Position numbers and translations under genes: made by a program
Part shown: in pieces, positions 3,476 to 54,358 of the stretch
How positions within the stretch are numbered: position 1 is the stretch's first letter
Layout of the letters: the number at the start of each line of letters is the position of its first letter
The notes under the pieces: generated by a model
Databases searched by the model: none
What the model saw: only the letters and a program-made list of their open reading frames with translations
Told to the model about the DNA's origin: nothing
From: a virus
Length of the DNA stretch: 59,005 nucleotides
Virus record (IMG/VR): IMGVR_UViG_3300047321_000135
Span: 1 to 59,005 of that record
Direction: 5' to 3' (one strand)

Positions 3476-3495
3476 TACGTGAGTCGACTTACGGA
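3476..3495. promoter_or_regulatory. Type A palindromic operator A2
   Basis: TACGTGAGTCGACTTACGGA, immediately after the stop of the 26-aa gene and before the downstream hairpin. Confidence 0.8.
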
Positions 3496-3496
3496 G

Positions 3497-3577
3497 CTAG
3501 TGCGGTCCCGGGCATGCAGACCTGTGGCAGTTGTGGGTCCAGCACCAGTCAGGGGATCTGGTCGGGTCGTCGCTCAT
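3497..3577 (-). CDS. 26-aa Cys/His-rich peptide
   Basis: MSDDPTRSPDWCWTHNCHRS followed by ACPGPH. ATG 3577 has AGGAGAGAGC directly upstream, a strong ribosome site, and the gene sits between a terminator and operator A2. The pattern C-x3-H-x-C-H-x3-C could hold one zinc ion. No family recognised. Below the usual length cut-off but well supported by signals. Confidence 0.55.
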   Translation of the reverse strand: MSDDPTRSPDWCWTHNCHRSACPGPH

Positions 3578-5100: not shown

Positions 5101-5200
5101 CCAAAATGCAAACTAACCCCCTTTTTTCAAAGCTCTCTAACGCGTGTAGAGAGTTATGAAAATAGGGGGTCAGTTTGTCGTTCTGTCCGCAGTTTGGCGC
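5101..5200. repeat. Nested inverted-repeat element, copy 1
   Basis: Outer arms CAAACTAACCCCCTTTTTT (5109-5127) and AATAGGGGGTCAGTTTG (5161-5177) flank a perfect inner pair, CTCTCTA (5133-5139) and TAGAGAG (5147-5153), around ACGCGTG. AGTTTGGC closes the element. The DNA is clearly richer in A+T than its surroundings. An obviously related copy lies at 35822-35920. Confidence 0.8.
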
Positions 5201-5236
5201 GGGACGGGGCGGAGGCAGGCTGACGTGGAGGCGCGA

Positions 5237-5971
5237 TCAGCCCCGTGAGCTGGTCTTTTGTGTCAGCTTGCGGAGCGAGGCTAGCTTCCGCTCGATGGCT
5301 GCCAGCTCCACGTCAAGGGCGGCTCGTTGCCCGTCGGTCATGTGCCGCTTGATGACGTTGCGGTCCAGTTGTCCCAGGATGTCCTTCGCCACCACAGCCA
5401 AGCGCAGATGGTCGGCCGTAGCCCGGACTGCCTTGCCGGCTTCCTCCCCTGTCGGCTCAGCCTTGCTCCGGCTTGGCTTCGGGGTGGACTCCTTGACGGC
5501 CGTCGACACTCTTGCAGCCTTGATGATCGACGAGTTCACCTTACGGCTGTCCTGTAGCCGCTCCAATGGGGACGTCGGCTGTAGGTCGTTCGCTTCCAGC
5601 TCACGTGGCGTCAGGTGGCGTCGCAGCAAGTTGCCAATGTGCCACCGGACGGACGCCTGTAGTGCGCTAGTGCTGTCGGCTGGGATGCCGGCACTTCGGT
5701 ACATGTCCGCCACCACCTGCCGGTACTCGTGGCTGGAGCCGCGCATGTCTTGGTGCTTGACGCGTAGCGCGACGACAACGACCGCGATGTTCCTGACGAG
5801 CGTGGTGGCAGCACCTTGAATGCGATGGTGCTCGCGGGCGTATGCCGCGCCACGGGCGACGAGTGCCGCCTCCCCCTCGTGCGCAAGGTCGTCCAGCTCC
5901 AGCGCGGGGAGATCGTCCACGCTGACGGGGACTGGCTCCCCTGTGCTCTTCGTGGCGATTTCTCGGCTCAT
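5237..5971 (-). CDS. Hypothetical protein, possible DNA-binding regulator
   Basis: 244 aa from the second ATG (5971), 5 bases after GAGAGG. The middle section is helical (HEYRQVVADMYRSAGIPADS, then ASVRWHIGNLLRRHLTPREL) and the last 100 residues are rich in K, R and A. The arrangement looks like nucleic-acid binding to me but no named domain is certain. A GTACCGC ... GCGGTAC pair lies in its upstream region and the nested inverted repeat lies just past its stop, both possible targets. Function unknown. Confidence 0.78.
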   Translation of the reverse strand: MSREIATKSTGEPVPVSVDDLPALELDDLAHEGEAALVARGAAYAREHHRIQGAATTLVRNIAVVVVALRVKHQDMRGSSHEYRQVVADMYRSAGIPADSTSALQASVRWHIGNLLRRHLTPRELEANDLQPTSPLERLQDSRKVNSSIIKAARVSTAVKESTPKPSRSKAEPTGEEAGKAVRATADHLRLAVVAKDILGQLDRNVIKRHMTDGQRAALDVELAAIERKLASLRKLTQKTSSRG

Positions 5972-6740: not shown

Positions 6741-6752
6741 TGCGTGTAGCCG

Positions 6753-6772
6753 TCCGTAAGTCGACTCGCGGA
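6753..6772. promoter_or_regulatory. Type A palindromic operator A3
   Basis: TCCGTAAGTCGACTCGCGGA, 16 bp upstream of the type B promoter of the SprT-like gene. Confidence 0.78.
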
Positions 6773-42159: not shown

Positions 42160-42216
42160 GTCCCTGGCGTGGCTCAACTATGACACACTTGAGTCGGCCG
42201 ACACAAGTCCTACCGA
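42160..42216 (-). promoter_or_regulatory. Type B promoter/operator B2 for the 41719-42129 gene
   Basis: TTGTGT, 18-bp spacer, CATAGT on the minus strand. The palindrome ACTTGAGTCGGCCGACACAA (42187-42206, continuing GT) covers the -35 and spacer. Confidence 0.75.
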
Positions 42217-42402
42217 TGAACTTCCGTAAGTCGACTCACGGAGCATCGCCACGAGCGCTCCCCCAGGCAGCTCCACCACCCATCCGCCGCGGACTCTCGT
42301 CCGCCCGTAGCCGGCGCTCACAGCCTGGCGGAGGAAGTGGCGGTGCGCCACGTCGTCGACGATGCCCGTCGCGCCGTTCTCCAGCGTCAGGCGGTAGCGC
42401 AT
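42178..42402 (-). CDS. Hypothetical protein whose 3' end reads through both operators
   Basis: 74 aa from ATG 42402 (AAGGAGCGGGG upstream). MRYRLTLENGATGIVDDVAH, then beta strands. The last 21 residues (LRESTYGSS, VGLVSADSS) are encoded by operator A4, operator B2 and the spacer, and the stop TAG lies in the CATAGT box. The upstream 50 residues look like a real protein; the tail is either tolerated or functional. Confidence 0.6.
   Translation of the reverse strand: MRYRLTLENGATGIVDDVAHRHFLRQAVSAGYGRTRVRGGWVVELPGGALVAMLRESTYGSSSVGLVSADSSVS
42223..42242. promoter_or_regulatory. Type A palindromic operator A4
   Basis: TCCGTAAGTCGACTCACGGA, a perfect 20-bp palindrome apart from the central asymmetry, 15 bp upstream of type B site B2. 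Confidence 0.82.
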
Positions 42403-42992
42403 CCCCGCTCCTTCGCCCTCGTCACGACGACCTTTCGGTCCGCGGGGATGACGGCGTCTCCTCCGCCCACGAAGCTGATGTGGACGTGCCGGCGGAGCGC
42501 CGTGGGCCAGGTGCTGTGTGCAGCCGTCCGCTCGTGGCTGTGGAGGGTGAAGACGTCGCCGGCTCGGATGTCGCGGGCGGTGATGGTGATGGTGACGTGG
42601 GCGGGGTCGATGGACACGGTGGCCTCCTTCACGAGTGCCTTGCGGTTGATCGCGACGACTACGGGTCGCTCTTCGACGACGACCGGAGCGGCCTCCGCGC
42701 GCTGCTCGACGCACCAGTGGTGGCCGCACTCCCCACCGATCTCCATCGGGTGACCCTCGTCGCACAGCTCGAAAGTGCCCGGGGCGAACCACTCGGCTCC
42801 GAAGCGACCGCTGGAGGGGCCCTCCACATCAGTGAAGTCAATGGTGTTGCGCAGCCACTTCAGCGCGTCCTCTTCGGTGCCCAGGTGCTTACCCATGTCG
42901 GCGCCGTTCAGGGTCACGCGGGTGTAGCCGAAGTCAGCGCCACGAGCCTTGACGACCTTCAGCTTGCGGCCCTTGTAGGTCTCGGTCTTCAT
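42387..42992 (-). CDS. Hypothetical protein
   Basis: 201 aa (MKTETYKGRKLKVVKARGAD). N-terminal strands with DFGYTRVTLNGADMGK, a middle section CDEGHPMEIGGECGHHWC rich in Cys/His, and a C-terminal beta domain (ATVSIDPAHVTITITARDIR). First gene after type B promoter B3. No family recognised. Confidence 0.75.
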   Translation of the reverse strand: MKTETYKGRKLKVVKARGADFGYTRVTLNGADMGKHLGTEEDALKWLRNTIDFTDVEGPSSGRFGAEWFAPGTFELCDEGHPMEIGGECGHHWCVEQRAEAAPVVVEERPVVVAINRKALVKEATVSIDPAHVTITITARDIRAGDVFTLHSHERTAAHSTWPTALRRHVHISFVGGGDAVIPADRKVVVTRAKERGCATA

Positions 42993-43019
42993 GGTCTCTC
43001 CTTCGTCAGTCCCTTGCGA

Positions 43020-43060
43020 TGTCTCGATGATGGCACACTTGAGTCGGCCGACACAAGTCC
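43020..43060 (-). promoter_or_regulatory. Type B promoter/operator B3 for the 42387-42992 gene
   Basis: TTGTGT, 18-bp spacer, CATCAT. Palindrome ACTTGAGTCGGCCGACACAA at 43037-43056. Confidence 0.75.
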
Positions 43061-43072
43061 CTTCGGCGAACT

Positions 43073-43092
43073 TCCGTAAGTCGACTCACGCA
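43073..43092. promoter_or_regulatory. Type A palindromic operator A5
   Basis: TCCGTAAGTCGACTCACGCA, directly after the stop of the sortase-like gene (43094). Confidence 0.78.
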
Positions 43093-43093
43093 C

Positions 43094-43921
43094 CTACACC
43101 CGACGCAGCAACGAGAACCCTGTCCCGTTCCCCACGCAGGTCTGCAGGACGAGCGCCGGCGAGCCAGGGAACGCGGGGATCGACCCGCCCTGACGACCAA
43201 TCCGCAGGTGGCCGTAGACCTCGTAGGTCCCCGCGAGCGGACCGGAGATGACGCGTACCTCCTGGCCGACAGGGACGCGGGAGAGCCACTGGTACCCCAT
43301 GTAGTTGTGACCGGCCAAGATGTTCCTGGCGTACATCGTCAGGGCTCCCGCGTCGATGCACTCCTGAGCGTGGCCAGTGCAGTCACGGTAGAAAGAGATC
43401 CGGATGTCGGCCGGCGGGGTCGCGATCGGGTGGCGCTTCGTCGGTGTCGTCGACGGGGTGGCGATGTGCTCCGCCGTCAGTGCCTTACGCTCCCCGTGTC
43501 GGCTCGTGTGCGTCGACGTGCGCGGCTTCGGGGTCGGGTAGTACGGCTCGATGCCCTCCGACGTACGGGAGAAGTACGGGGCCGGCGCCATGTCCTCCCC
43601 CGCGCTGTGGGGCTGCGCGAGAGCGGCCGCCAGGGCGAGCGCGGTTGTGACGCCAGCGGTGACAGCTGCCGCGCGGAGCGGGGTGCGAGAGGGACGGCCA
43701 GTGTGGGCGAGACGCTCCAGCGGGCCTCCCCCGAACTCCCGCGCGAAGCGGAAGCCGTCCAGGATGGTCAGCTCTGACAGCCGACGCTCCGCCTCATCCC
43801 CCGTCAGCCGCTCCACGCTGATGACTCTCTTCTCCGGCGTGAATTGGTAGGTCTCGAACTGCGTTACCTCGTCGTCGTGAGTGACCCGGACGCGGGTGCC
43901 GTCGCTCAGCTTGTAGATCAT
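43094..43921 (-). CDS. Membrane-anchored sortase-like protein
   Basis: 275 aa from ATG 43921. The first 60 residues are cytoplasmic-looking (IYKLSDGTRVRVTHDDEVTQ). One hydrophobic helix at about 84-102 (AAAVTAGVTTALALAAALAQ) and a Pro/Thr-rich linker follow. The C-terminal domain has LAGHNYMGYQWLSRVPVGQE, ISGPLAGTYEVYGHLR and ALVLQTCVGN … LLRRV. That gives the His, the LxTC Cys and the distal Arg of a sortase in the correct order. Sortases attach proteins to the cell wall. A phage-coded one could alter the surface of the lysogen. Confidence 0.72.
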   Translation of the reverse strand: MIYKLSDGTRVRVTHDDEVTQFETYQFTPEKRVISVERLTGDEAERRLSELTILDGFRFAREFGGGPLERLAHTGRPSRTPLRAAAVTAGVTTALALAAALAQPHSAGEDMAPAPYFSRTSEGIEPYYPTPKPRTSTHTSRHGERKALTAEHIATPSTTPTKRHPIATPPADIRISFYRDCTGHAQECIDAGALTMYARNILAGHNYMGYQWLSRVPVGQEVRVISGPLAGTYEVYGHLRIGRQGGSIPAFPGSPALVLQTCVGNGTGFSLLRRV

Positions 43922-43923
43922 CG

Positions 43924-44076
43924 TCACTTCTCCTCTTCCCTCGTCGGCGTCGGTCCGCCGGCCTTGCGCATGTCCGTGTGGAGCTGGCTGACGGCCGCCT
44001 TGCGGCTCGTCGTGGCCGTTGCGTGGAAACGGTCGAACGCTGCCTGTACGGCGGCGTCGCGGGATGAGTGGGTCAT
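43924..44076 (-). CDS. 50-aa helical peptide
   Basis: MTHSSRDAAVQAAFDRFHAT with following TTSRKAAVSQLHTDMRKAGG. ATG 44076 has GGAGGAAGC upstream; the stop lies 3 bases before the next start. A single amphipathic helix pair. No family. Confidence 0.6.
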   Translation of the reverse strand: MTHSSRDAAVQAAFDRFHATATTSRKAAVSQLHTDMRKAGGPTPTREEEK

Positions 44077-44288
44077 GCTGCTTCCTCCCCCGTCCGGGAG
44101 AGCGCCTCTTCGAAGAAGATCGCTATCCGCTCGCCGTGGATGAGGTACTCCGCCACACGGTCGGTACCGATGTGCGGGTAGGTCTCCACCATCCTGCTCG
44201 CCCGGGCGCGGGCCACATCGACGGGGATCTCCGGGAACGCATCCACAAGTTTGGCTGCTGCCCGTCGGATCTTCAGGGACTTCAACAT
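44073..44288 (-). CDS. Hypothetical small helical protein
   Basis: 71 aa from ATG 44288 (GGAGGAACG upstream). MLKSLKIRRAAAKLVDAFPE start, helical throughout. Overlaps the following 50-aa gene by four bases. Confidence 0.65.
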   Translation of the reverse strand: MLKSLKIRRAAAKLVDAFPEIPVDVARARASRMVETYPHIGTDRVAEYLIHGERIAIFFEEALSRTGEEAA

Positions 44289-44308
44289 CGTTCCTCCTCC
44301 TTCGTTGC

Positions 44309-44521
44309 TCATAGCCGGATCACGTCGACGTAGTTGCCGCGCAGGTAAGTCATGATCAGCGGGTGGCCGTTGGGCCAGTCCCGTAAGTGCGTCTGCACTC
44401 GCATGACACTCGTGGAGGTCACCCACACGTCGACCACACGCGCGAGCGGGACACGGTGTCCGTCCAGGAAGCCGACGAGCCAGTCTCCGGGGCGGATGTC
44501 GGGGAAGCTGGGGATGTCCAT
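44309..44521 (-). CDS. Hypothetical beta-rich protein
   Basis: 70 aa (MDIPSFPDIRPGDWLVGFLD). Strands LARVVDVWVTSTSVMRVQTH suggest a small SH3-like barrel. Preceded by AAGGAGGC. Unknown function. Confidence 0.68.
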   Translation of the reverse strand: MDIPSFPDIRPGDWLVGFLDGHRVPLARVVDVWVTSTSVMRVQTHLRDWPNGHPLIMTYLRGNYVDVIRL

Positions 44522-44541
44522 GCCGCCTCCTTGCGGTCCGG

Positions 44542-44709
44542 CTAGACGCCGCTACGGGCCCACAGGCCCACGGCCAGGATAAGTACGAGCGGCACGCCGA
44601 ACGAGACAGCTGCCGCGCCCCACGTTCCGAACCCCACGACGATCGCGAGAATCGGGAACGGCAGCCAGATGGCGGCGTATGCCGTGTAGTCGACCAGTGG
44701 ACGCTTCAT
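44542..44709 (-). CDS. 55-aa membrane protein
   Basis: MKRPLVDYTAYAAIWLPFPI, then a second hydrophobic segment (AAVSFGVPLVLILAVGLWAR): two membrane helices. ATG 44709 has AGGAGGAACG upstream. Related in style to the 57-aa protein at 44821-44994 (shared G-x-W/S, FG-x-P-x-L). Confidence 0.68.
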   Translation of the reverse strand: MKRPLVDYTAYAAIWLPFPILAIVVGFGTWGAAAVSFGVPLVLILAVGLWARSGV

Positions 44710-44736
44710 CGTTCCTCCTACGGCTTGATCTTCGAG

Positions 44737-44813
44737 TGCCCCGCCGCGGATTCGAACCGCGCGCCCGCCGGCACTGGGGGTGTCGGGTTGATCGGGCGAT
44801 GCCTAGACGGGGC
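44737..44813 (-). tRNA. Isolated tRNA-like element in the early region
   Basis: Acceptor GCCCCGT/GCGGGGC (six pairs and one GU), T arm CGCGG-TTCGAAT-CCGCG and discriminator A, 77 bases in all, exactly tRNA size. The D and anticodon arms do not fold normally and no U33-anticodon is present. It fills the only gap between two membrane-protein genes. Confidence 0.5.
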
Positions 44814-44820
44814 GGACGGG

Positions 44821-44994
44821 TCAGTGGGTTCGCCGAAGCACGATCAGGAACACCGTCAGCCACAGCGCAACCGGTGCGCCGAACGTGACCGCCGCATCGG
44901 CGTTGCTGTCGACACCGACAGTCAAGCCCAAAGCCGCAAACGGGACGAACCAGGTTGCCATCAGGCCCACCATCGTCTTCTCGGTCGTGTCCAT
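44821..44994 (-). CDS. 57-aa membrane protein
   Basis: MDTTEKTMVGLMATWFVPFA then TVGVDSNADAAVTFGAPVAL: two hydrophobic helices. ATG 44994 follows AGGAGGAGAAAG. Similar in layout to 44542-44709, suggesting a duplicated pair separated by the tRNA-like element. Confidence 0.68.
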   Translation of the reverse strand: MDTTEKTMVGLMATWFVPFAALGLTVGVDSNADAAVTFGAPVALWLTVFLIVLRRTH

Positions 44995-45074
44995 ATATCT
45001 TTCTCCTCCTACGGCCTGCCTCATCAGCGCGGGTAGGCCAGTCCCCGCGGACGCCCCGGAGGGCGTTTCGGCTA

Positions 45075-45344
45075 TCAGCAAGTGTGCTTGCCGTCGTGCC
45101 CAGTGGGGCTCACGCAGTAGATGTAGGCGACCACTCCGCTGCTGAGGGCGACGTCCTGCGGGCCACACTCGGCAGGCTTCCAGGCCGCTTCGGTGCCGTG
45201 CCATCCGACGGGAGTTCCGACGATCCACACGGCTCCGTCGGTCATGGTCAGGGAGCGGACACCGCGCGCGGTGCGGGCGTTGGAGCTGTCGGCGTCGATT
45301 ACCTGGAACTTCAGACCCGACTCGTGAGCGACGGTGGTCTTCAT
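45075..45344 (-). CDS. Hypothetical protein
   Basis: 89 aa from ATG 45344 (AGGAGGAGC upstream). Beta-rich, with four Trp/Tyr and three Cys (ECGPQDVAL, YIYCVSPTGHDGKHTC). First gene after type B promoter B4. No family recognised. Confidence 0.72.
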   Translation of the reverse strand: MKTTVAHESGLKFQVIDADSSNARTARGVRSLTMTDGAVWIVGTPVGWHGTEAAWKPAECGPQDVALSSGVVAYIYCVSPTGHDGKHTC

Positions 45345-45383
45345 AGCTCCTCCTCCTGCCGGACTTTCCGTAAGTCCTTGGCG

Positions 45384-45425
45384 TGGCTCCATAGTTGCAT
45401 ACTTGAGCCGACCGACACAAGTCCC
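45384..45425 (-). promoter_or_regulatory. Type B promoter/operator B4 for the 45075-45344 gene
   Basis: TTGTGT, 18-bp spacer, AACTAT. Palindrome-like ACTTGAGCCGACCGACACAA at 45401-45420, one arm degenerate. Confidence 0.65.
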
Positions 45426-45447
45426 TTCCGTGAGTCGACTCACGGAA
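45426..45447. promoter_or_regulatory. Type A palindromic operator A6 (perfect)
   Basis: TCCGTGAGTCGACTCACGGA plus one further pair on each side, a perfect 22-bp palindrome. Confidence 0.85.
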
Positions 45448-45451
45448 CGAC

Positions 45452-45475
45452 GAAGGCCCGGAGCCGAAGCCCCGG
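45452..45475 (-). terminator. Hairpin after the TerD gene
   Basis: GGCCCGG / CCGGGCC arms with a 10-base loop; TTCGTCG follows on the minus strand. Confidence 0.65.
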
Positions 45476-45485
45476 GCCCTGTGCA

Positions 45486-46082
45486 TCACATGCCGATCGC
45501 GAACCGGAGAAGACTGGTCTGGTCACCCTGGCGTACGGTGCCGCGGGTGTTGACGACCTCCAGCTTCCAGGTGTCGCCGGCCCGGTACGCCTTCGCCACG
45601 GCGCACGCGTTGCCGCTTCCCAGGAGGGACGGCCAGATGTCGGCCATGATGCCCGGAGTGCCGTCGCTGCTGTCGTAGACCTTGAAGCTGACGTTCATGG
45701 CCTTCTCGAACGAACTGCCCTTCTTGAAGGCGGCGCAGACGAACAGGATGGCGTCAACGTTGCCGGGGACCTTCGTGAAGTCGACGGTGATCGTCTCGTC
45801 GTCGCCCTCCCCGCGCCCGGTCTGGTTGTCCCCGCTGTGCACCACGGAGCCGTTCTGAACGGGGTCCAGAGAGTCCAGGCCGGCCAGGCGGACGGGCTCA
45901 CCGCCCTGCATCAGGATGGCGATGGCGTCCAGGTCGGTCCCCCGCTGACGCTTGGCCCACCCCATGACGCCGCCAGCTCCGCCGGCCGACGCATCCCATG
46001 AGGCGCCGATAGCCAGCTTGGTGACGCCGGGAAGGTCGGCGGCGCCCATGTCCTTGGTGAGTGTGACGGTTGCAGTGGTCAT
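45486..46082 (-). CDS. terD: TerD-family protein
   Basis: 198 aa. VTKLAIGASWDASAGG, DLDAIAILMQ and VVHSGDNQTGRGEGDDETIT form the TerD core with its two calcium-binding sites. TerD proteins belong to stress and tellurite-resistance modules and are linked to membrane stress responses and phage inhibition. The single gene lies between a terminator and operator A7. No other ter genes accompany it, so it is probably a host-modulating moron. Confidence 0.9.
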   Translation of the reverse strand: MTTATVTLTKDMGAADLPGVTKLAIGASWDASAGGAGGVMGWAKRQRGTDLDAIAILMQGGEPVRLAGLDSLDPVQNGSVVHSGDNQTGRGEGDDETITVDFTKVPGNVDAILFVCAAFKKGSSFEKAMNVSFKVYDSSDGTPGIMADIWPSLLGSGNACAVAKAYRAGDTWKLEVVNTRGTVRQGDQTSLLRFAIGM

Positions 46083-46109
46083 GCTCTCTCCTCAGTGAGT
46101 GATACGTGG

Positions 46110-46129
46110 TCCGTGAGTCGACTTGCGGA
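46110..46129. promoter_or_regulatory. Type A palindromic operator A7
   Basis: TCCGTGAGTCGACTTGCGGA, 2 bp after the stop of the 46132-46458 gene. Confidence 0.8.
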
Positions 46130-46131
46130 GG

Positions 46132-46458
46132 TCAACCGGCGAGAAACTCCGCCAGGCGGATGATGTCGTCTGCGGTGTGCTCGGTGCCGGCCAGGTGCTC
46201 CTTCGCGCGGGCCACAAGGGCGTCACGGTCGGTGGTGGCGCCAGCCGACAGGACGTGCTCTGAGGGCTTGTCCACCAGTTCCACCGAGTAGAGCCAGCAT
46301 GCGTGCTCCGCCTCGTCCAGCAGCACGTAGTACGGAAGCCGCGCGTCTCCGAAGTCGGTAGCCTGGATTACCCCGGTCCGGCCGGTGTAGTAGCTGTCAT
46401 CGTCGGCCCGATCGGCCTGAAGGACGCGCACCCGGTCACCAACTCTGATGTCTGCCAT
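46132..46458 (-). CDS. Hypothetical KOW-like small protein
   Basis: 108 aa. IRVGDRVRVLQADRADDDSY then YYTGRTGVI resembles an SH3/KOW-type barrel. The C-terminus has a helical tail ending AEFLAG. It is a paralogue of the 46458-47024 product, which has the same VGDRVR start and the same closing LADYLAG helix. Confidence 0.75.
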   Translation of the reverse strand: MADIRVGDRVRVLQADRADDDSYYTGRTGVIQATDFGDARLPYYVLLDEAEHACWLYSVELVDKPSEHVLSAGATTDRDALVARAKEHLAGTEHTADDIIRLAEFLAG

Positions 46459-47024
46459 CACTTCTCCCCCGCCAGGTAGTCGGCCAGCTCGGTCAGGTCG
46501 AACGCGGTGTAGGTCTGGCTGTTGATCATGAGGTCGGCGGCCTGCTCCAGCAGTGCCGCGCGAGACCGGGTGGGAGCGGAGTCGTCCAGGGCAACGATCT
46601 TCGACGCGTCGATGACGGGCTCGTCGTCGACCCGTTCCACATCGTCGGGGTTCAGGTACCAGAGGCCGTTCGCGCCAGCGCCAGCAACTCGGATGTCGTA
46701 GTCGGCCACATCGCGGACGGTGTAGATCTCGCCAGCCCGCACCCTGGCTCCGCGGGATCCAGCGGTGATGATGCGGACACGGTCGCCGACCTTGATAGCC
46801 GGCTTCGGATCCGCTGCCTTCTCTCCCCCGTCGACCTCGTCGGCCAGTGCCAGGATGCCGCGGGCGAAGGTGCGTGCGTCGGCCGGCGTCAGGAACGGCT
46901 CCGTCGCCATCTCGTCGTCCGCGAACGCTTCGACGATGACGGATGTCCCATTGTGGTACGCCGTCAGACGCTGGCCGTCGTCGTGGCGGCATTGTGCGGT
47001 GTGCTGCGTCCTGTGCTCGGTCAT
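46458..47024 (-). CDS. Hypothetical KOW-like protein with N-terminal extension
   Basis: 188 aa. N-terminal 70 residues (HNGTSVIVEAFADDEMATEP) then IKVGDRVRIITAGSRGARVR … VRDVADYDIRVAG, an SH3-like barrel, then a helical C-terminus. Stop/start overlap (TGATG) with its paralogue. ATG 47024 has AGGAGAGAGC upstream. Confidence 0.75.
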   Translation of the reverse strand: MTEHRTQHTAQCRHDDGQRLTAYHNGTSVIVEAFADDEMATEPFLTPADARTFARGILALADEVDGGEKAADPKPAIKVGDRVRIITAGSRGARVRAGEIYTVRDVADYDIRVAGAGANGLWYLNPDDVERVDDEPVIDASKIVALDDSAPTRSRAALLEQAADLMINSQTYTAFDLTELADYLAGEK

Positions 47025-47054
47025 GCTCTCTCCTCTGTCGTCATGCTCAGTAGC

Positions 47055-47074
47055 TCCGTAAGTCGACTCACGGA
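47055..47074. promoter_or_regulatory. Type A palindromic operator A8
   Basis: TCCGTAAGTCGACTCACGGA, 2 bp past the stop of the 46-aa gene. Confidence 0.82.
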
Positions 47075-47076
47075 GG

Positions 47077-47217
47077 TCAGTCGACGAACTCCGCATCGAA
47101 GAGGCGGGAGTCCTCCAGCGCCTCCACGGCCGCCAGGACGTCGGCACCCCACAGGGCGGCCTCCTCCGGGCGGACTCCCTGGAGGTCGTAGTCGTCAAGG
47201 GACGGGTACGGGTACAT
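47077..47217 (-). CDS. 46-aa acidic peptide
   Basis: MYPYPSLDDYDLQGVRPEEA followed by ALWGADVLAAVEALEDSRLF. ATG 47217 follows AGGAGAAAACCC. Downstream of the sigma factor gene in the same direction; stop adjacent to A8. Acidic and helical, so a sigma-binding or anti-sigma role is possible but unproven. Confidence 0.62.
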   Translation of the reverse strand: MYPYPSLDDYDLQGVRPEEAALWGADVLAAVEALEDSRLFDAEFVD

Positions 47218-47243
47218 GGGTTTTCTCCTGTCGAGTGAGTGCT

Positions 47244-48020
47244 TTACGCGGCGATGTTGTGGCGGCCGGCCACGGCGCGGGCGTTGTCGATTCCGCGGGT
47301 GCGGAGGACGCGAAGGGGAGCCTTCTTGACCTGGAGGTCCGCGCTTGCCTCGTCCTCCGTCAGACGCTGCATGCCGATGCCGTAGAAGGCGCGGAGTGCG
47401 AATGCCTGGCGCTGCGGAATCTCCGTCAGCAGCCAGCGGGCCAGGTCGCGGCGCGCGGTGGTGTCGGTGAAATCCGACGAGGCGTCGGGGATGAGATCAG
47501 AGAGCAGGATGCTTCCGTCCTCCCCCACGGCGCCCCGGACGACATCCTGTGGGGCGTCCAGACACTGCGTCTCCGCAATTGCTTCACGAATTGCCACGAA
47601 CGCTTCACGCGACATCCGTCGACGGGGGTCAGTGTCGCTGGATACGATCATCCAAGCGCCTTCGACGTCGCCTTCCGTGTCCCAGAGTGCCCGCCGCACA
47701 CGCAGTGCCGCGGACGCATCCACGGAGAGCTGCGTCGTGGAGCCGAGCCACTCCTCCGCAACGGCGCGGCGGATGGCGTTGTATGCGTAGGTGGCAAGCG
47801 TGGCGGCGCTGGCCTCGGTGTCGTAGGAGCGGGTGTTCTGGAGGAGTACCGCGCGTGCCTCCTGGATCAGGTCGTCGTTCTGCTCCCGCGTTGCACCCGG
47901 CGCCGTGGTCCGGATGATCCGCCACATCATCGGCTCGTATGCGCTGATGATCTCCCACATGGCGTCCTGGTCGCCGGCCTGCGCTGCCTGGATCTGCTCG
48001 GTGGTGACGGTGGTCGACAT
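47244..48020 (-). CDS. Phage sigma-70-like factor
   Basis: 258 aa. Residues about 10-90 match sigma region 2: AAQAGDQDAMWEIISAYEPM, NDDLIQEARAVLLQNTRSYD, TYAYNAIRRAVAEEW (the DDLIQEA core and the melting helix). Region 4 lies at about 205-250: FALRAFYGIGMQRLTEDEAS, with RTRGIDNAR as the recognition helix. Region 1 and most of region 3 are short or missing. It is expressed from its own copy of the conserved promoter (P4), which fits autoactivation. It probably directs host RNA polymerase to P1-P4. Confidence 0.85.
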   Translation of the reverse strand: MSTTVTTEQIQAAQAGDQDAMWEIISAYEPMMWRIIRTTAPGATREQNDDLIQEARAVLLQNTRSYDTEASAATLATYAYNAIRRAVAEEWLGSTTQLSVDASAALRVRRALWDTEGDVEGAWMIVSSDTDPRRRMSREAFVAIREAIAETQCLDAPQDVVRGAVGEDGSILLSDLIPDASSDFTDTTARRDLARWLLTEIPQRQAFALRAFYGIGMQRLTEDEASADLQVKKAPLRVLRTRGIDNARAVAGRHNIAA

Positions 48021-48049
48021 GTGGGCTCCTCGTGAGTTCGTCTTGTGTC

Positions 48050-48089
48050 TCAGTTATGTGGGGGTAGAGCGAAGATGTTTCACGTGACT
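48050..48089 (-). promoter_or_regulatory. Conserved phage promoter element P4 (sigma gene)
   Basis: Minus strand CGTGAAACAT, 11 bases, CCCCACATAACT, about 30 bp before the sigma ATG. Confidence 0.78.
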
Positions 48090-48168
48090 TTTGTGACCTG
48101 GACCACACAGCTAGGCGGTCGTCAGGGCGCGACAAGCCGCCGCGTGTCCGGGTAGTGGTGAGTTGAAG

Positions 48169-48196
48169 GCGCCCCCCGTGTCGGCCCGGGGGTGCG
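48169..48196 (-). terminator. GC hairpin after the 48230-48451 gene
   Basis: GCGCCCCCCG / CGGGGGTGCGC-type arms. The rest of 48090-48200 shows no gene. Confidence 0.55.
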
Positions 48197-48202
48197 CGGT
48201 GC

Positions 48203-48222
48203 TCCGTGAGTCGCCTTACGGA
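48203..48222. promoter_or_regulatory. Type A palindromic operator A9
   Basis: TCCGTGAGTCGCCTTACGGA, one centre mismatch, just after the stop of the 48230-48451 gene. Confidence 0.75.
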
Positions 48223-48229
48223 GGTCGGA

Positions 48230-48451
48230 TCAGGCGGGCAGATCCTTCACGGGCCAGCCGAACGCGTCGGCGATACCCACGTCGGCCATGGCCTGTGCGC
48301 AGCACTCCCAGCCGGCCATCCGGTAGAGCGCCGTGACGTCGAGCCAGGCGACACCGTCGTTCATCAGCTGCGCATCGAGCAGCCCCGCCATCTCGTGCAG
48401 AGCGCCCAATTCGTCAGGCGTCCTCTGCGGTCCCGTCAGCATGATCGTCAT
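48230..48451 (-). CDS. Hypothetical small protein
   Basis: 73 aa (MTIMLTGPQRTPDELGALHE) from ATG 48451, with GGGGG 5 bases upstream. Helical. Overlaps the end of the 48414-48815 gene. Confidence 0.7.
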   Translation of the reverse strand: MTIMLTGPQRTPDELGALHEMAGLLDAQLMNDGVAWLDVTALYRMAGWECCAQAMADVGIADAFGWPVKDLPA

Positions 48452-48815
48452 TGAATCCCCCCGGGACTAGGACCGGCTCCTCCCCCTCCCATCGGGCGAG
48501 TGCGCGATCCATTGATGCGGTGGTGCCTCTCACGTAAGCGACCGCGTAGGTCACGTAGTTGGCACCGGTTTTCAGTTCTTCGAGCAGAGCTTCCCGGGCG
48601 GAGTCAAGTGCTGTTCGCTCGGTCGGGCGGGAGGGGCCAGAGGTTGCCTTCCGACCGGTTCCGTCCGGGTCCACGTCGGGCAACCTCCCCGGCATGGTCA
48701 CTGCGTCGTCGTAGACGGAGATCATGTGACGTAGCTCGGCCAGCTCCCGTTCAAGAGCGTCGGCCAAAGTAGTCAAATGTTGTCCTTCTGCGACGTGATG
48801 AGGACTGTAGGTCAC
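48414..48815 (-). CDS. Hypothetical coiled-coil protein
   Basis: 133 aa from GTG 48815 (GGAGG 4 bases upstream). TTLADALERELAELRHMISV, then AREALLEELKTGANYVTYAV: two helices. Downstream of the double type B region at 48905-48972, so probably repressed in the lysogen. Confidence 0.72.
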   Translation of the reverse strand: MTYSPHHVAEGQHLTTLADALERELAELRHMISVYDDAVTMPGRLPDVDPDGTGRKATSGPSRPTERTALDSAREALLEELKTGANYVTYAVAYVRGTTASMDRALARWEGEEPVLVPGGFNDDHADGTAEDA

Positions 48816-48904
48816 TGCACCTCCACGGGCAATTGCCAGACGGCGGGATCATGATGGGTGTTACCTGGGGTATGCACCGATTTGACCGGTGAGTGTGTAC
48901 TGAG

Positions 48905-48970
48905 AGTTAGTCATACTTGTGTCGGCCGACCCATCCGACCTGCGGTTTTGTCGGCCGACTCAAGACACGG
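48905..48970 (-). promoter_or_regulatory. Double type B promoter/operator region B5-B6
   Basis: Two half-preserved sites, ACTTGTGTCGGCCGAC (48915-48930) and GTCGGCCGACTCAAG (48950-48964). ATGGGT, 18 bp, CTAACT forms the promoter towards the 48414-48815 gene. The 48816-49045 gap has no gene. Confidence 0.6.
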
Positions 48971-51878: not shown

Positions 51879-54358
51879 CACGCCTCCTCCCCAAAGATGT
51901 TGGTCGGACCGGCCGGTACCTCTGCCTCGTCGATGCCCTCCGCAAGTCGACTCGCGCGCTCCTTTTCCTCATCAGTCAGGAGGCGAAGCCCGTCGAAGCC
52001 CCAAGCGCCACGCTTCTTGGCCTTCTTGAACCCGCGGCTCTCAAGCTCCACCGCCAACGCCCAACCCGAGAGCCGTTCCTTACGGTCAAGTCCGGCGTCT
52101 TCCGCCCATTCCGCGTACGCACGCCTGACAGCCATGGGAGCCACTCGCGCGCCGTCCTCGCGGATGGTGCACGCGGTCAGGAACTCCTGGAGGCGGTCCT
52201 CCGACTCCTTGTAGTCCTGCGTGGCAGTGGCGACGGAGGACGGCTCTCCAAGTCCCTGCGCGTACCACTCCACGGCGCCTGCGACGGCCCACGCGAGGAT
52301 CCCCTCCGACTCCGCCCGCAGCTTGGAGGGGAGGGCGGTGTCCTTGTTGCCCAGCGCGTAGGAGAACGTCGCGTCGAAAGGAATCAACTTGACCCGCCTC
52401 CACGTCCCCTCGTCCTGCGACAGGATCGCGGGCTTGAAGTTGCCGGCCACCAGGAGCAGGAACGACGGCACGTAGGTAAAGGGGTTCTGGTTCAGGAAGC
52501 GGCACGTGATCGGGTCGCCGCCCGTGAGCTGCTTCACGAGTGCCTCCGCCAGTCGGCTGTACTTCTCCGTCTCGCTCGCCGTTACGAGCCGCGCACCGCG
52601 CAAGGAGGCCAGCTCCGGGGACGCCTGGCCGACGTTCACCGATTTCTCGAAGGTGTGGAACTGCGTCGCCTGCGTAACACCCTTGAACACGTGGATCAGC
52701 GCGTCCAGGAATACGCTCTTCCCGTTGCTCCCCTGCCCGTGCATGAAGGCGAAGCAGTGCTCAGACGTCGATCCCGTGCAGCCGTAGCCGACGAGCCGGC
52801 GCATGAATCCGGGGAGATCCGGATGCCCGGGGAACACTTCCGTCAGGAACTGATTCCACCGCTCCGCGGGTGCATCAGGATGGTAGGCGACGTCAAGACG
52901 CTTCGTGATCATGTCCGCCGGGGTGTGCGGGTGCAGCTTCCCCGTGCGGAGGTTGATGGTGCCGTTCTCCACACTCAACAGCTCGTGGTTCGCGTCGAAG
53001 TCGCTAGCCTTTGCCGGCACACCGGGGACGCTGGGCAGCTCCTTCATTACGGCGTCGATGCTGCGGTTCGTCAGGGCCTTCAGCGCAAGCTTCCGGTCCG
53101 CGTCCTCTCCCGTGGAGAGCAGTTCCGCGCCCAGCAGGTGCAGGGACTCGCGGACTGCGTTCGCGTCCTGCCGCCACACGCGGCCGTCCCAGACGAGGAA
53201 ACCGAGCCCCGCCGCGTACCGGACTCCGCCCCCCTTGCGCGCCATGAAGTCACGGAGTCGGACCGCAACGCCGACGTCGGAGTTGTCGAACAGCTGACGC
53301 GACGAGACGTCCATCAGCTCCAGGGCTGCATCAGTCGCGGGCATGTCGACCTCCTCCTTCGGCGATGTGGTGGTGGCTGGCTTCGGCTGCTCCAGGGCAA
53401 CGACAGGAGCGGATCGGACTGCGGCATGCAGTGCTGCCGGGAAGGCGTCGGTGTCACGCTCCCGCCAGTCGGTCAGGTCGTCGCCCTCGTGCGGGATCTC
53501 CAGGCGACGAACCATGACGCCGGCGCGGACGAGTGCCTCCGCCAGGGAGTCGGTAAAGCCAGCTCCCGCGCGGTCCCTGTCGCCGCAGATGACGACGTCC
53601 AGGTCCCGCAGCCCGTCGGCCAGTTCGGCGACAAGGGCGGCGTTACGGGCGAGACCAGCCCCGCGGACAGCCACGGCGTCGTAGCCGGCACCGACGGCGC
53701 TAAGTGCGTCGCCCGGTCCTTCGGTGATCAGGATGGTGTCGAAGTTCGCGCCGGAACGAAGGACGCCGTACTTCGCCCACGTCCGCCCCTCCACGTTGGC
53801 CAGGGAGACCCAGCGGGCAGGGCACTTCGTCGACAGGTCGCGGCCCTGCAGCCCGCGAATGACGCCGTCGAAGCCAGCGAGCGGCACCGTCACCCGCGGA
53901 TACCGGGTGAAGCCACGGCTGAGCCAGGGCTGAGGGCGGGCACCCGGCGCGCAGTAACCGACGTTCAGATCTTCGGCCAACTCCGGCGTCACGCCGAAGC
54001 GGTCGAAGATGTAGAAGGCGGCTTCGGAGTCCGGCGCCAGGGCGGCCGACGTCTCGTCGACGAACATCCGCAGACCGGCGATCTCCCCCGGGCCGATGGA
54101 CTCCGGCGCCTTCGCGCTGATGGTGCGCGCGCCCTGGCCGTCGACGTTGTACAGGTCCGGCCCCGTCAGGTTGAGCTTCCGCAGGATCTCCGCCCGGTCA
54201 CAGCCTGTACGGCAGACCATCAGAAGCATGCCGTCCGACTTGAGCGTCAACTTCAGCGACGGGTGATTCTGGTCGTTGTGCGCGGGGCAGAGGGCAAGGT
54301 AGCCGTCGTGGTCCTCCTTCACTCCGCTCAGTCGCCCCAGAATGTCCGTGAGCTTCAA
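51878..54358 (-). CDS. Toprim primase - SF3/D5 helicase
   Basis: 826 aa. Residues 15-60: CPAHNDQNHPSLKL … CRTGC, a CHC2-type zinc finger. TOPRIM around 190-260: DTILITEGPGDALSAVGAGY and VVICGDRDRAGAG. Helicase of SF3/D5 type around 520-640: AFMHGQGSNGKSVFLDALIH (Walker A), FLLLVAGNFKPAI and DEGTWRRVKLIPFD. It primes DNA and unwinds it, feeding the neighbouring polymerase. Operator A10 lies inside its 3' coding end. Confidence 0.92.
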   Translation of the reverse strand: MKLTDILGRLSGVKEDHDGYLALCPAHNDQNHPSLKLTLKSDGMLLMVCRTGCDRAEILRKLNLTGPDLYNVDGQGARTISAKAPESIGPGEIAGLRMFVDETSAALAPDSEAAFYIFDRFGVTPELAEDLNVGYCAPGARPQPWLSRGFTRYPRVTVPLAGFDGVIRGLQGRDLSTKCPARWVSLANVEGRTWAKYGVLRSGANFDTILITEGPGDALSAVGAGYDAVAVRGAGLARNAALVAELADGLRDLDVVICGDRDRAGAGFTDSLAEALVRAGVMVRRLEIPHEGDDLTDWRERDTDAFPAALHAAVRSAPVVALEQPKPATTTSPKEEVDMPATDAALELMDVSSRQLFDNSDVGVAVRLRDFMARKGGGVRYAAGLGFLVWDGRVWRQDANAVRESLHLLGAELLSTGEDADRKLALKALTNRSIDAVMKELPSVPGVPAKASDFDANHELLSVENGTINLRTGKLHPHTPADMITKRLDVAYHPDAPAERWNQFLTEVFPGHPDLPGFMRRLVGYGCTGSTSEHCFAFMHGQGSNGKSVFLDALIHVFKGVTQATQFHTFEKSVNVGQASPELASLRGARLVTASETEKYSRLAEALVKQLTGGDPITCRFLNQNPFTYVPSFLLLVAGNFKPAILSQDEGTWRRVKLIPFDATFSYALGNKDTALPSKLRAESEGILAWAVAGAVEWYAQGLGEPSSVATATQDYKESEDRLQEFLTACTIREDGARVAPMAVRRAYAEWAEDAGLDRKERLSGWALAVELESRGFKKAKKRGAWGFDGLRLLTDEEKERASRLAEGIDEAEVPAGPTNIFGEEA
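51939..51958. promoter_or_regulatory. Type A operator A10, inside coding sequence
   Basis: TCCGCAAGTCGACTCGCGCG, with several mismatches, within codons for RASRLAEG of the primase-helicase. Confidence 0.6.

Follow-up and report, generated by a model that had tools for sequence, protein, structure and literature searches.

A predicted mini-sortase of Streptomyces phages and its relatives on actinobacterial chromosomes

The window analysed here, of 59,005 bases, is the whole of an IMG/VR virus record and is kin to Samy, a temperate phage of Streptomyces. It contains a phage integrase (36106-37746, phrog_95), a sigma factor (47244-48020) and, further on, a DNA polymerase and a primase. On the minus strand, at 43094..43921, lies a gene for a divergent mini-sortase of 275 aa (PHROG 17228, 'peptidase'), identified by an ORF call, a profile match and its selection pattern. 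The start codon is the ATG at 43921, or alternatively the GTG at 43927, and the stop is at 43094. Just upstream on the same strand, similarity and an ORF call define a 50-aa ORF (43924..44076) that resembles Samy gp74 and whose stop overlaps the mini-sortase start. The upstream gene order is partly that of Samy, where gp76 is the mini-sortase homologue. Compared with the homologue L007, the gene shows a dN of 0.135 and a dS of 0.480, and pairwise dN/dS is about 0.27-0.45 across the full-length protein: the gene is under purifying selection.

Four parts make up the protein, all encoded on the minus strand: a small domain at the N-terminus, a single hydrophobic segment for export, a linker rich in Pro and a C-terminal domain of 108 aa. 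For residues 1-55 (43757..43921) four strands and one helix are predicted, at a pLDDT of 85-93. Hydropathy gives one hydrophobic segment at residues ~84-102 (43616..43672; model helix at 89-100), which corresponds to the export signal or membrane anchor of sortases. An Arg-rich stretch precedes this segment, suggesting an N-in/C-out orientation. A Pro/Thr-rich linker of low confidence follows (residues ~103-167, 43421..43615, pLDDT below 50 over 102-153), and then the predicted sortase-fold catalytic domain at residues 168-275 (43097..43420), defined by an AF2 model and fold searches. The original prediction of a single-pass anchor with a cytoplasmic N-terminus agrees with the single hydrophobic segment and the suggested orientation; the segment could be such an anchor or, given its Ala-x-Ala motifs, a cleaved signal peptide.

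Judging from sequence comparison, the N-terminal domain is an exchangeable add-on and no defining part of the mini-sortase. Residues 1-55 are common to L007 and L033 only and are replaced or absent in the other relatives, most of which begin at the export segment. Different N-terminal sequences are carried by L034 and L040, and that of L034 matches phrog_13316, a small phage family also present as Samy gp36 and gp71. In Samy-type phages, unrelated small domains are joined at one junction, LA[HT]TGRPSR, ahead of the export segment (cases in L033:5001-5700, L034:4809-5060, L040 upstream of 4001 and, on the minus strand, window 43757-43921). A search of phages for homologues of the N-terminal domain gave none. 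An origin by fusion of Samy gp75 with a mini-sortase was ruled out, as there is no similarity, and the Foldseek matches of the full-length model were too weak to use for a PC4-like identity.

Two recurrent palindromes, CTTGAGTCGGCCGACACAAG and CTTCCGTAAGTCGACTCACG, have 7 and 12 matches in the window, where about 0 are expected. A pattern scan places the sites at 392-411, 3478-3497, 6751-6770, 42188-48964 and 51937-51956, and palindrome pairs share modules of ~71 nt ahead of several minus-strand genes. They are probably repressor sites of the phiC31/Samy kind. The mini-sortase gene had been proposed to lie under two of them, called A5 and B3. The palindromes are real, but the close pair (43034..43090) is on the downstream side, between the mini-sortase and the next minus-strand gene (42387-42992), and the nearest upstream pair (palindromes B and A, 45398..45444) is 1.5 kb away. 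Five short ORFs lie between this upstream pair and the mini-sortase, and as a search of the interval for terminator-like sites on the minus strand gave none, the mini-sortase is plausibly the last gene of that operon. A sigma-70 promoter scan gave nothing; phage promoters may differ from that model. The description 'prophage-controlled' is too narrow, because the gene also occurs in several unrelated and mostly much larger phages. The operator-flanked early region also encodes a TerD-domain protein (45486-46082, minus strand; PF02342, E 1.2e-20; phrog_5698).

Sortases are the enzymes by which bacteria attach proteins to their cell walls. The Pfam and NCBIfam sortase models, PF04203 included, give no match above cut-off for the window protein, whose sole Pfam match is KOW (E 0.089). 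When the family profile is compared with PDB sequences the top matches are unrelated and a class A sortase appears only at E 0.56, which we do not count as evidence. Comparison with a small mixed set of host sortases by hhalign gives E 0.0026 with a probability of only 11%, a weak match in which His and Cys are nevertheless in register. The Streptomyces relatives match Pfam Sortase weakly (best E 0.0011), and the relatives L078 and L075 reach 19.1 and 13.5 bits against a cut-off of 26.6.

Predicted structure is more informative. The full-length AF2 model has two confident parts, residues 168-275 and the small N-terminal domain, and a domain-only model of 168-275 has a pLDDT of 94.2 and a pTM of 0.88, with no strand 2 assigned. 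In a Foldseek search against the PDB, ranks 1-13 are all sortases (best E 0.0036), while the next match has E 3.5. The 50 VIA-align matches listed are likewise all sortases, of several classes, with 99-104 aligned residues at an rmsd of about 3 A and Z values of 7.0-8.7; these values are middling alone, and the argument for the fold is the uniform match list and the drop behind it. The models thus support a sortase beta-barrel fold for the C-terminal domain. The likeness of the motifs could instead be due to chance, with another fold, for instance of L,D-transpeptidase or NlpC/P60 type, underneath; the feeble sequence-only results, with KOW in Pfam and a class A sortase below unrelated proteins, would suit this. 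However, two independent AF2 runs and all weighty structural matches indicate sortases, so that we consider another fold extremely unlikely. Neither an L,D-transpeptidase nor an NlpC/P60 protein is among the fold-search matches listed, although absence alone proves nothing. The label 'sortase-like' is supported by the fold searches, by the positions of His and Cys and by the gene neighbourhood of cellular relatives.

Conservation of the active site was counted over 57 aligned homologue rows, 55 of them different. SrtE1 has its catalytic His after strand 4, its Cys at the end of strand 7 and its Arg as the second residue in strand 8 (PMC5148588). In the window protein both model and alignment put the first two at these positions: His205 (GHNYMG; 43307..43309, minus strand) comes after strand 4 (201-204) and is present in 56/57 rows, and Cys262 (LVLQTC; 43136..43138, minus strand), at the end of strand 7 (257-263) in the motif LQ[TS]C, is present in 57/57. 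Gln260 and Asp190 are also found in 57/57 rows, while Arg273 is variable.

The Arg is another matter. Strand 8 (266-274) begins after a turn of ~2 residues, so Cys262 should face approximately residue 267. Further, the end points of the VIA-align superposition pair model residue 275 with SrtE1 residue 337, so that SrtE1 Arg329 falls at 267, provided that strand 8 is gap-free. In the model, the usual place of the catalytic Arg accordingly appears to hold Thr or Ile in all rows (Thr267 in the window protein; 43121..43123, minus strand). Arg274 (LLRR; 43100..43102, minus strand) sits at the distal end of strand 8 and would lie about seven residues, some 20 A, past the sortase position. The original prediction had read His, Cys and this Arg as being in sortase order. 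The first two stand, and all three are conserved far beyond chance (Arg274 in 56/57 rows), but LLRR is probably not the sortase Arg. Arg243, in the 6-7 loop, is present in 37/42 phage and Micrococcales rows, and most of the remaining rows have Lys there or close by; a basic residue at ~243 may be a candidate stand-in for the missing Arg.

Besides Cys262, nearly every row has another two Cys, at positions that vary from subgroup to subgroup: 181 and 188 in most phages, elsewhere in L031 and in the Micrococcales and Streptomyces rows. This alignment pattern fits a moving disulfide together with one free catalytic Cys. The phage YDN12 (L015, ~5127-5465) naturally has Arg instead of His205 and keeps the Cys, so that at least one copy in the family may be inactive.

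The PHROG 17228 'peptidase' profile matches the window protein with E 8.8e-49 over positions 6-200 of 201. In total 20 phage records match, all of Streptomyces phages, with genomes of ~57, 61, 64, 82 and 184-200 kb. At least five kinds of Streptomyces phage, among them the temperate Samy, carry homologues, and the neighbour genes differ between phage groups. Their GenBank labels are hypothetical protein, peptidase, cysteine protease and putative exported peptidase. Two scans of IMG/VR added 28 more contigs, bacterial genomes gave six loci, and a search of a plasmid collection gave no match. In the literature searched there was neither a description of a phage-coded sortase in actinophages nor a paper on a sortase from these phages.

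The tree unites all phage rows (97/80) and separates them from two other groups, one of Micrococcales (95/91) and one of Streptomyces lipoproteins (100/100). The branching fits a single entry into phages followed by spread, the position of the root not being fixed. A relative of the mini-sortase, or a fragment of one, is found in one in eighteen to one in ten of the scanned Streptomyces genomes. The Streptomyces phage mini-sortase is a member of a little-described sortase branch that is also present on some actinobacterial chromosomes. A chromosomal mini-sortase of the Micrococcales type was further seen in 10/17 genomes of one actinobacterial family, that of genome G005, and at both loci inspected, L115 and L116, it is near a FAD_binding_4 protein.

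The neighbourhood of the chromosomal gene was inspected at ten Streptomyces loci. At nine of them (L114:63-3397 with L073; L117:4393-8922; L118-L123; L125) a membrane protein containing a Pfam Sortase domain comes first, then a PstB-like ABC ATPase and then the mini-sortase. In eight of the nine an Ig-like surface protein is found just ahead, and its tail consists of [LM]A[SA]TG, hydrophobic residues and finally Arg/Lys. At 9/9 cluster loci the Pfam-sortase protein has Arg for the catalytic His and Ala for the catalytic Cys, while the mini-sortase of the cluster is a lipoprotein in which His and Cys are intact. As the neighbouring sortase is without His and Cys, the Streptomyces mini-sortase may be the working enzyme for an LAXTG-like substrate. 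The surface protein and the broken sortase of this cluster are both absent from the phages.

We consider the best explanation, at a probability of roughly 0.55, to be an exported sortase-fold cysteine enzyme that edits host surface proteins. There is computational support for its fold, the positions of His and Cys, its export and the conservation of the family. The gene would be expressed as the last of a short operon that lies in the early region and is controlled by phage operators, and its product would be a cysteine enzyme with a minimal sortase fold, tethered to the membrane or located in the wall space. There, Cys262 as nucleophile and His205 as acid/base would cut a peptide in a surface protein or secreted protein of the host; the peptide would then be transferred to a new partner or released. 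The outcome would be a changed surface of the infected or lysogenic cell, with superinfection exclusion as one possible benefit. The substrate, the reaction (transfer or hydrolysis) and the benefit to the phage are what we infer. Likely targets would be host proteins with short xAxTG-like tails, since the Streptomyces relatives are encoded beside such a protein; the loops in the model are short compared with the signal-binding loops of SrtE1, which makes LAXTG recognition by the phage enzyme only putative. Further points against this explanation are that the Arg is apparently gone from its usual place, that YDN12 has lost His205, that no curated sortase model matches, and that the phages are without the other cluster genes.

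A sortase encoded with its own substrate usually anchors that substrate, and attachment of a phage protein to the host wall had been among the uses suggested for this gene. A simple pattern scan for sorting-signal tails returned only noise in the window, Samy, Zuko and 50 of the 57 kb of TP1604, and the genes beside the mini-sortase change from one phage group to another, so that anchoring of a phage-coded protein is very unlikely. Because no phage-coded protein with a sorting signal was found, surface proteins of the host itself are the probable targets of the mini-sortase.

What it does to them can be read in other ways. An active exported peptidase that only hydrolyses, trimming or shedding host surface proteins and being no transpeptidase, would agree with the PHROG and GenBank labels as well as with the short loops and the altered surroundings of the active site. 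The labels, however, derive from remote homology with no assay behind them and the fold neighbours are all transpeptidases; we find pure hydrolysis unlikely. If, instead, the domain were an inefficient enzyme that serves as a decoy or inhibitor, binding the sorting signals or wall precursors of the host in competition with its sortases, the Thr/Ile at the usual Arg position, the loss of His in YDN12 and the occurrence of catalytically broken sortases in the related Streptomyces cluster would all be accounted for. An invariant Cys262 and a nearly invariant His205 over deep divergence are unexpected for a pure binder, and a decoy is in our view unlikely.

Returning to the editing enzyme, a wider and tentative proposal is that the mini-sortases are a separate minimal class without the usual Arg, whose role may be taken by a basic loop residue at ~243. 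The mini-sortase would, in some Streptomyces, be the active enzyme in a system comprising an xAxTG surface protein, a sortase without His and Cys and an ABC ATPase, and it would have been acquired once by Streptomyces phages and spread among unrelated ones for the editing of host surface proteins. A conserved sortase in unrelated Streptomyces phages would indicate that phages edit the surface proteins of their hosts. Further, the family tests how fixed the Cys-His-Arg triad of sortases is, and it led to the Streptomyces cluster with its broken sortase, apparently intact mini-sortase and sorting-signal protein.

Among known systems, the members of PHROG 17228 (Samy gp76, TP1604 gp43, Zuko gp45 and Kela gp192) are of the same family and have the same domain and export segment; the literature searched gives these phage proteins a label and no description. 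Samy gp76 is 66% identical to the window protein over the last 166 aa. In contrast to the window protein, most of these phage copies, Samy included, are without the N-terminal domain. Samy gp76 is annotated as 'related to PDB 4D70_B', a structure of C. perfringens sortase D, in an annotation that used an HHpred cut-off of 95.8% (PMC11302927), and this is in line with the fold searches. This class D sortase superposes on the window domain with Z 7.3, and the window protein has no NCBIfam class D match.

The class E enzyme SrtE1 of S. coelicolor (5CUW) superposes with Z 8.3 over 104 residues, yet is only 16% identical to the window domain. Shared are the barrel, the His after strand 4, the Cys ending strand 7, an N-terminal cytoplasmic part and the export segment (PMC5148588). 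However, the window domain is ~30 residues shorter and strand 2 is missing; the 3-4 loop, which in SrtE1 has 16 residues, is reduced to ~3 in the model, and the LAXTG-reading Tyr (SrtE1 Tyr229), a class E feature, is missing. In strand 8, the window protein would have Thr where SrtE1 has Arg329.

The nearest cellular relatives are the Micrococcales-type homologues (L038, L091), with 47% identity by hhalign and a neighbouring tree group; they differ by another cysteine pair, and no sorting-signal gene was noticed nearby. The Streptomyces lipoprotein mini-sortases (L073, L117 and others) are distant on the tree and differ by a lipobox, other disulfide positions and the surface-protein cluster. 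They nevertheless belong to the same family, with profile E-values down to 1.9e-20 (L073 against PHROG 17228, E 8e-5), and share with the window protein GH[ND]Y..G, LQ[TS]C, G[TI]G[FL]S and the distal Arg.
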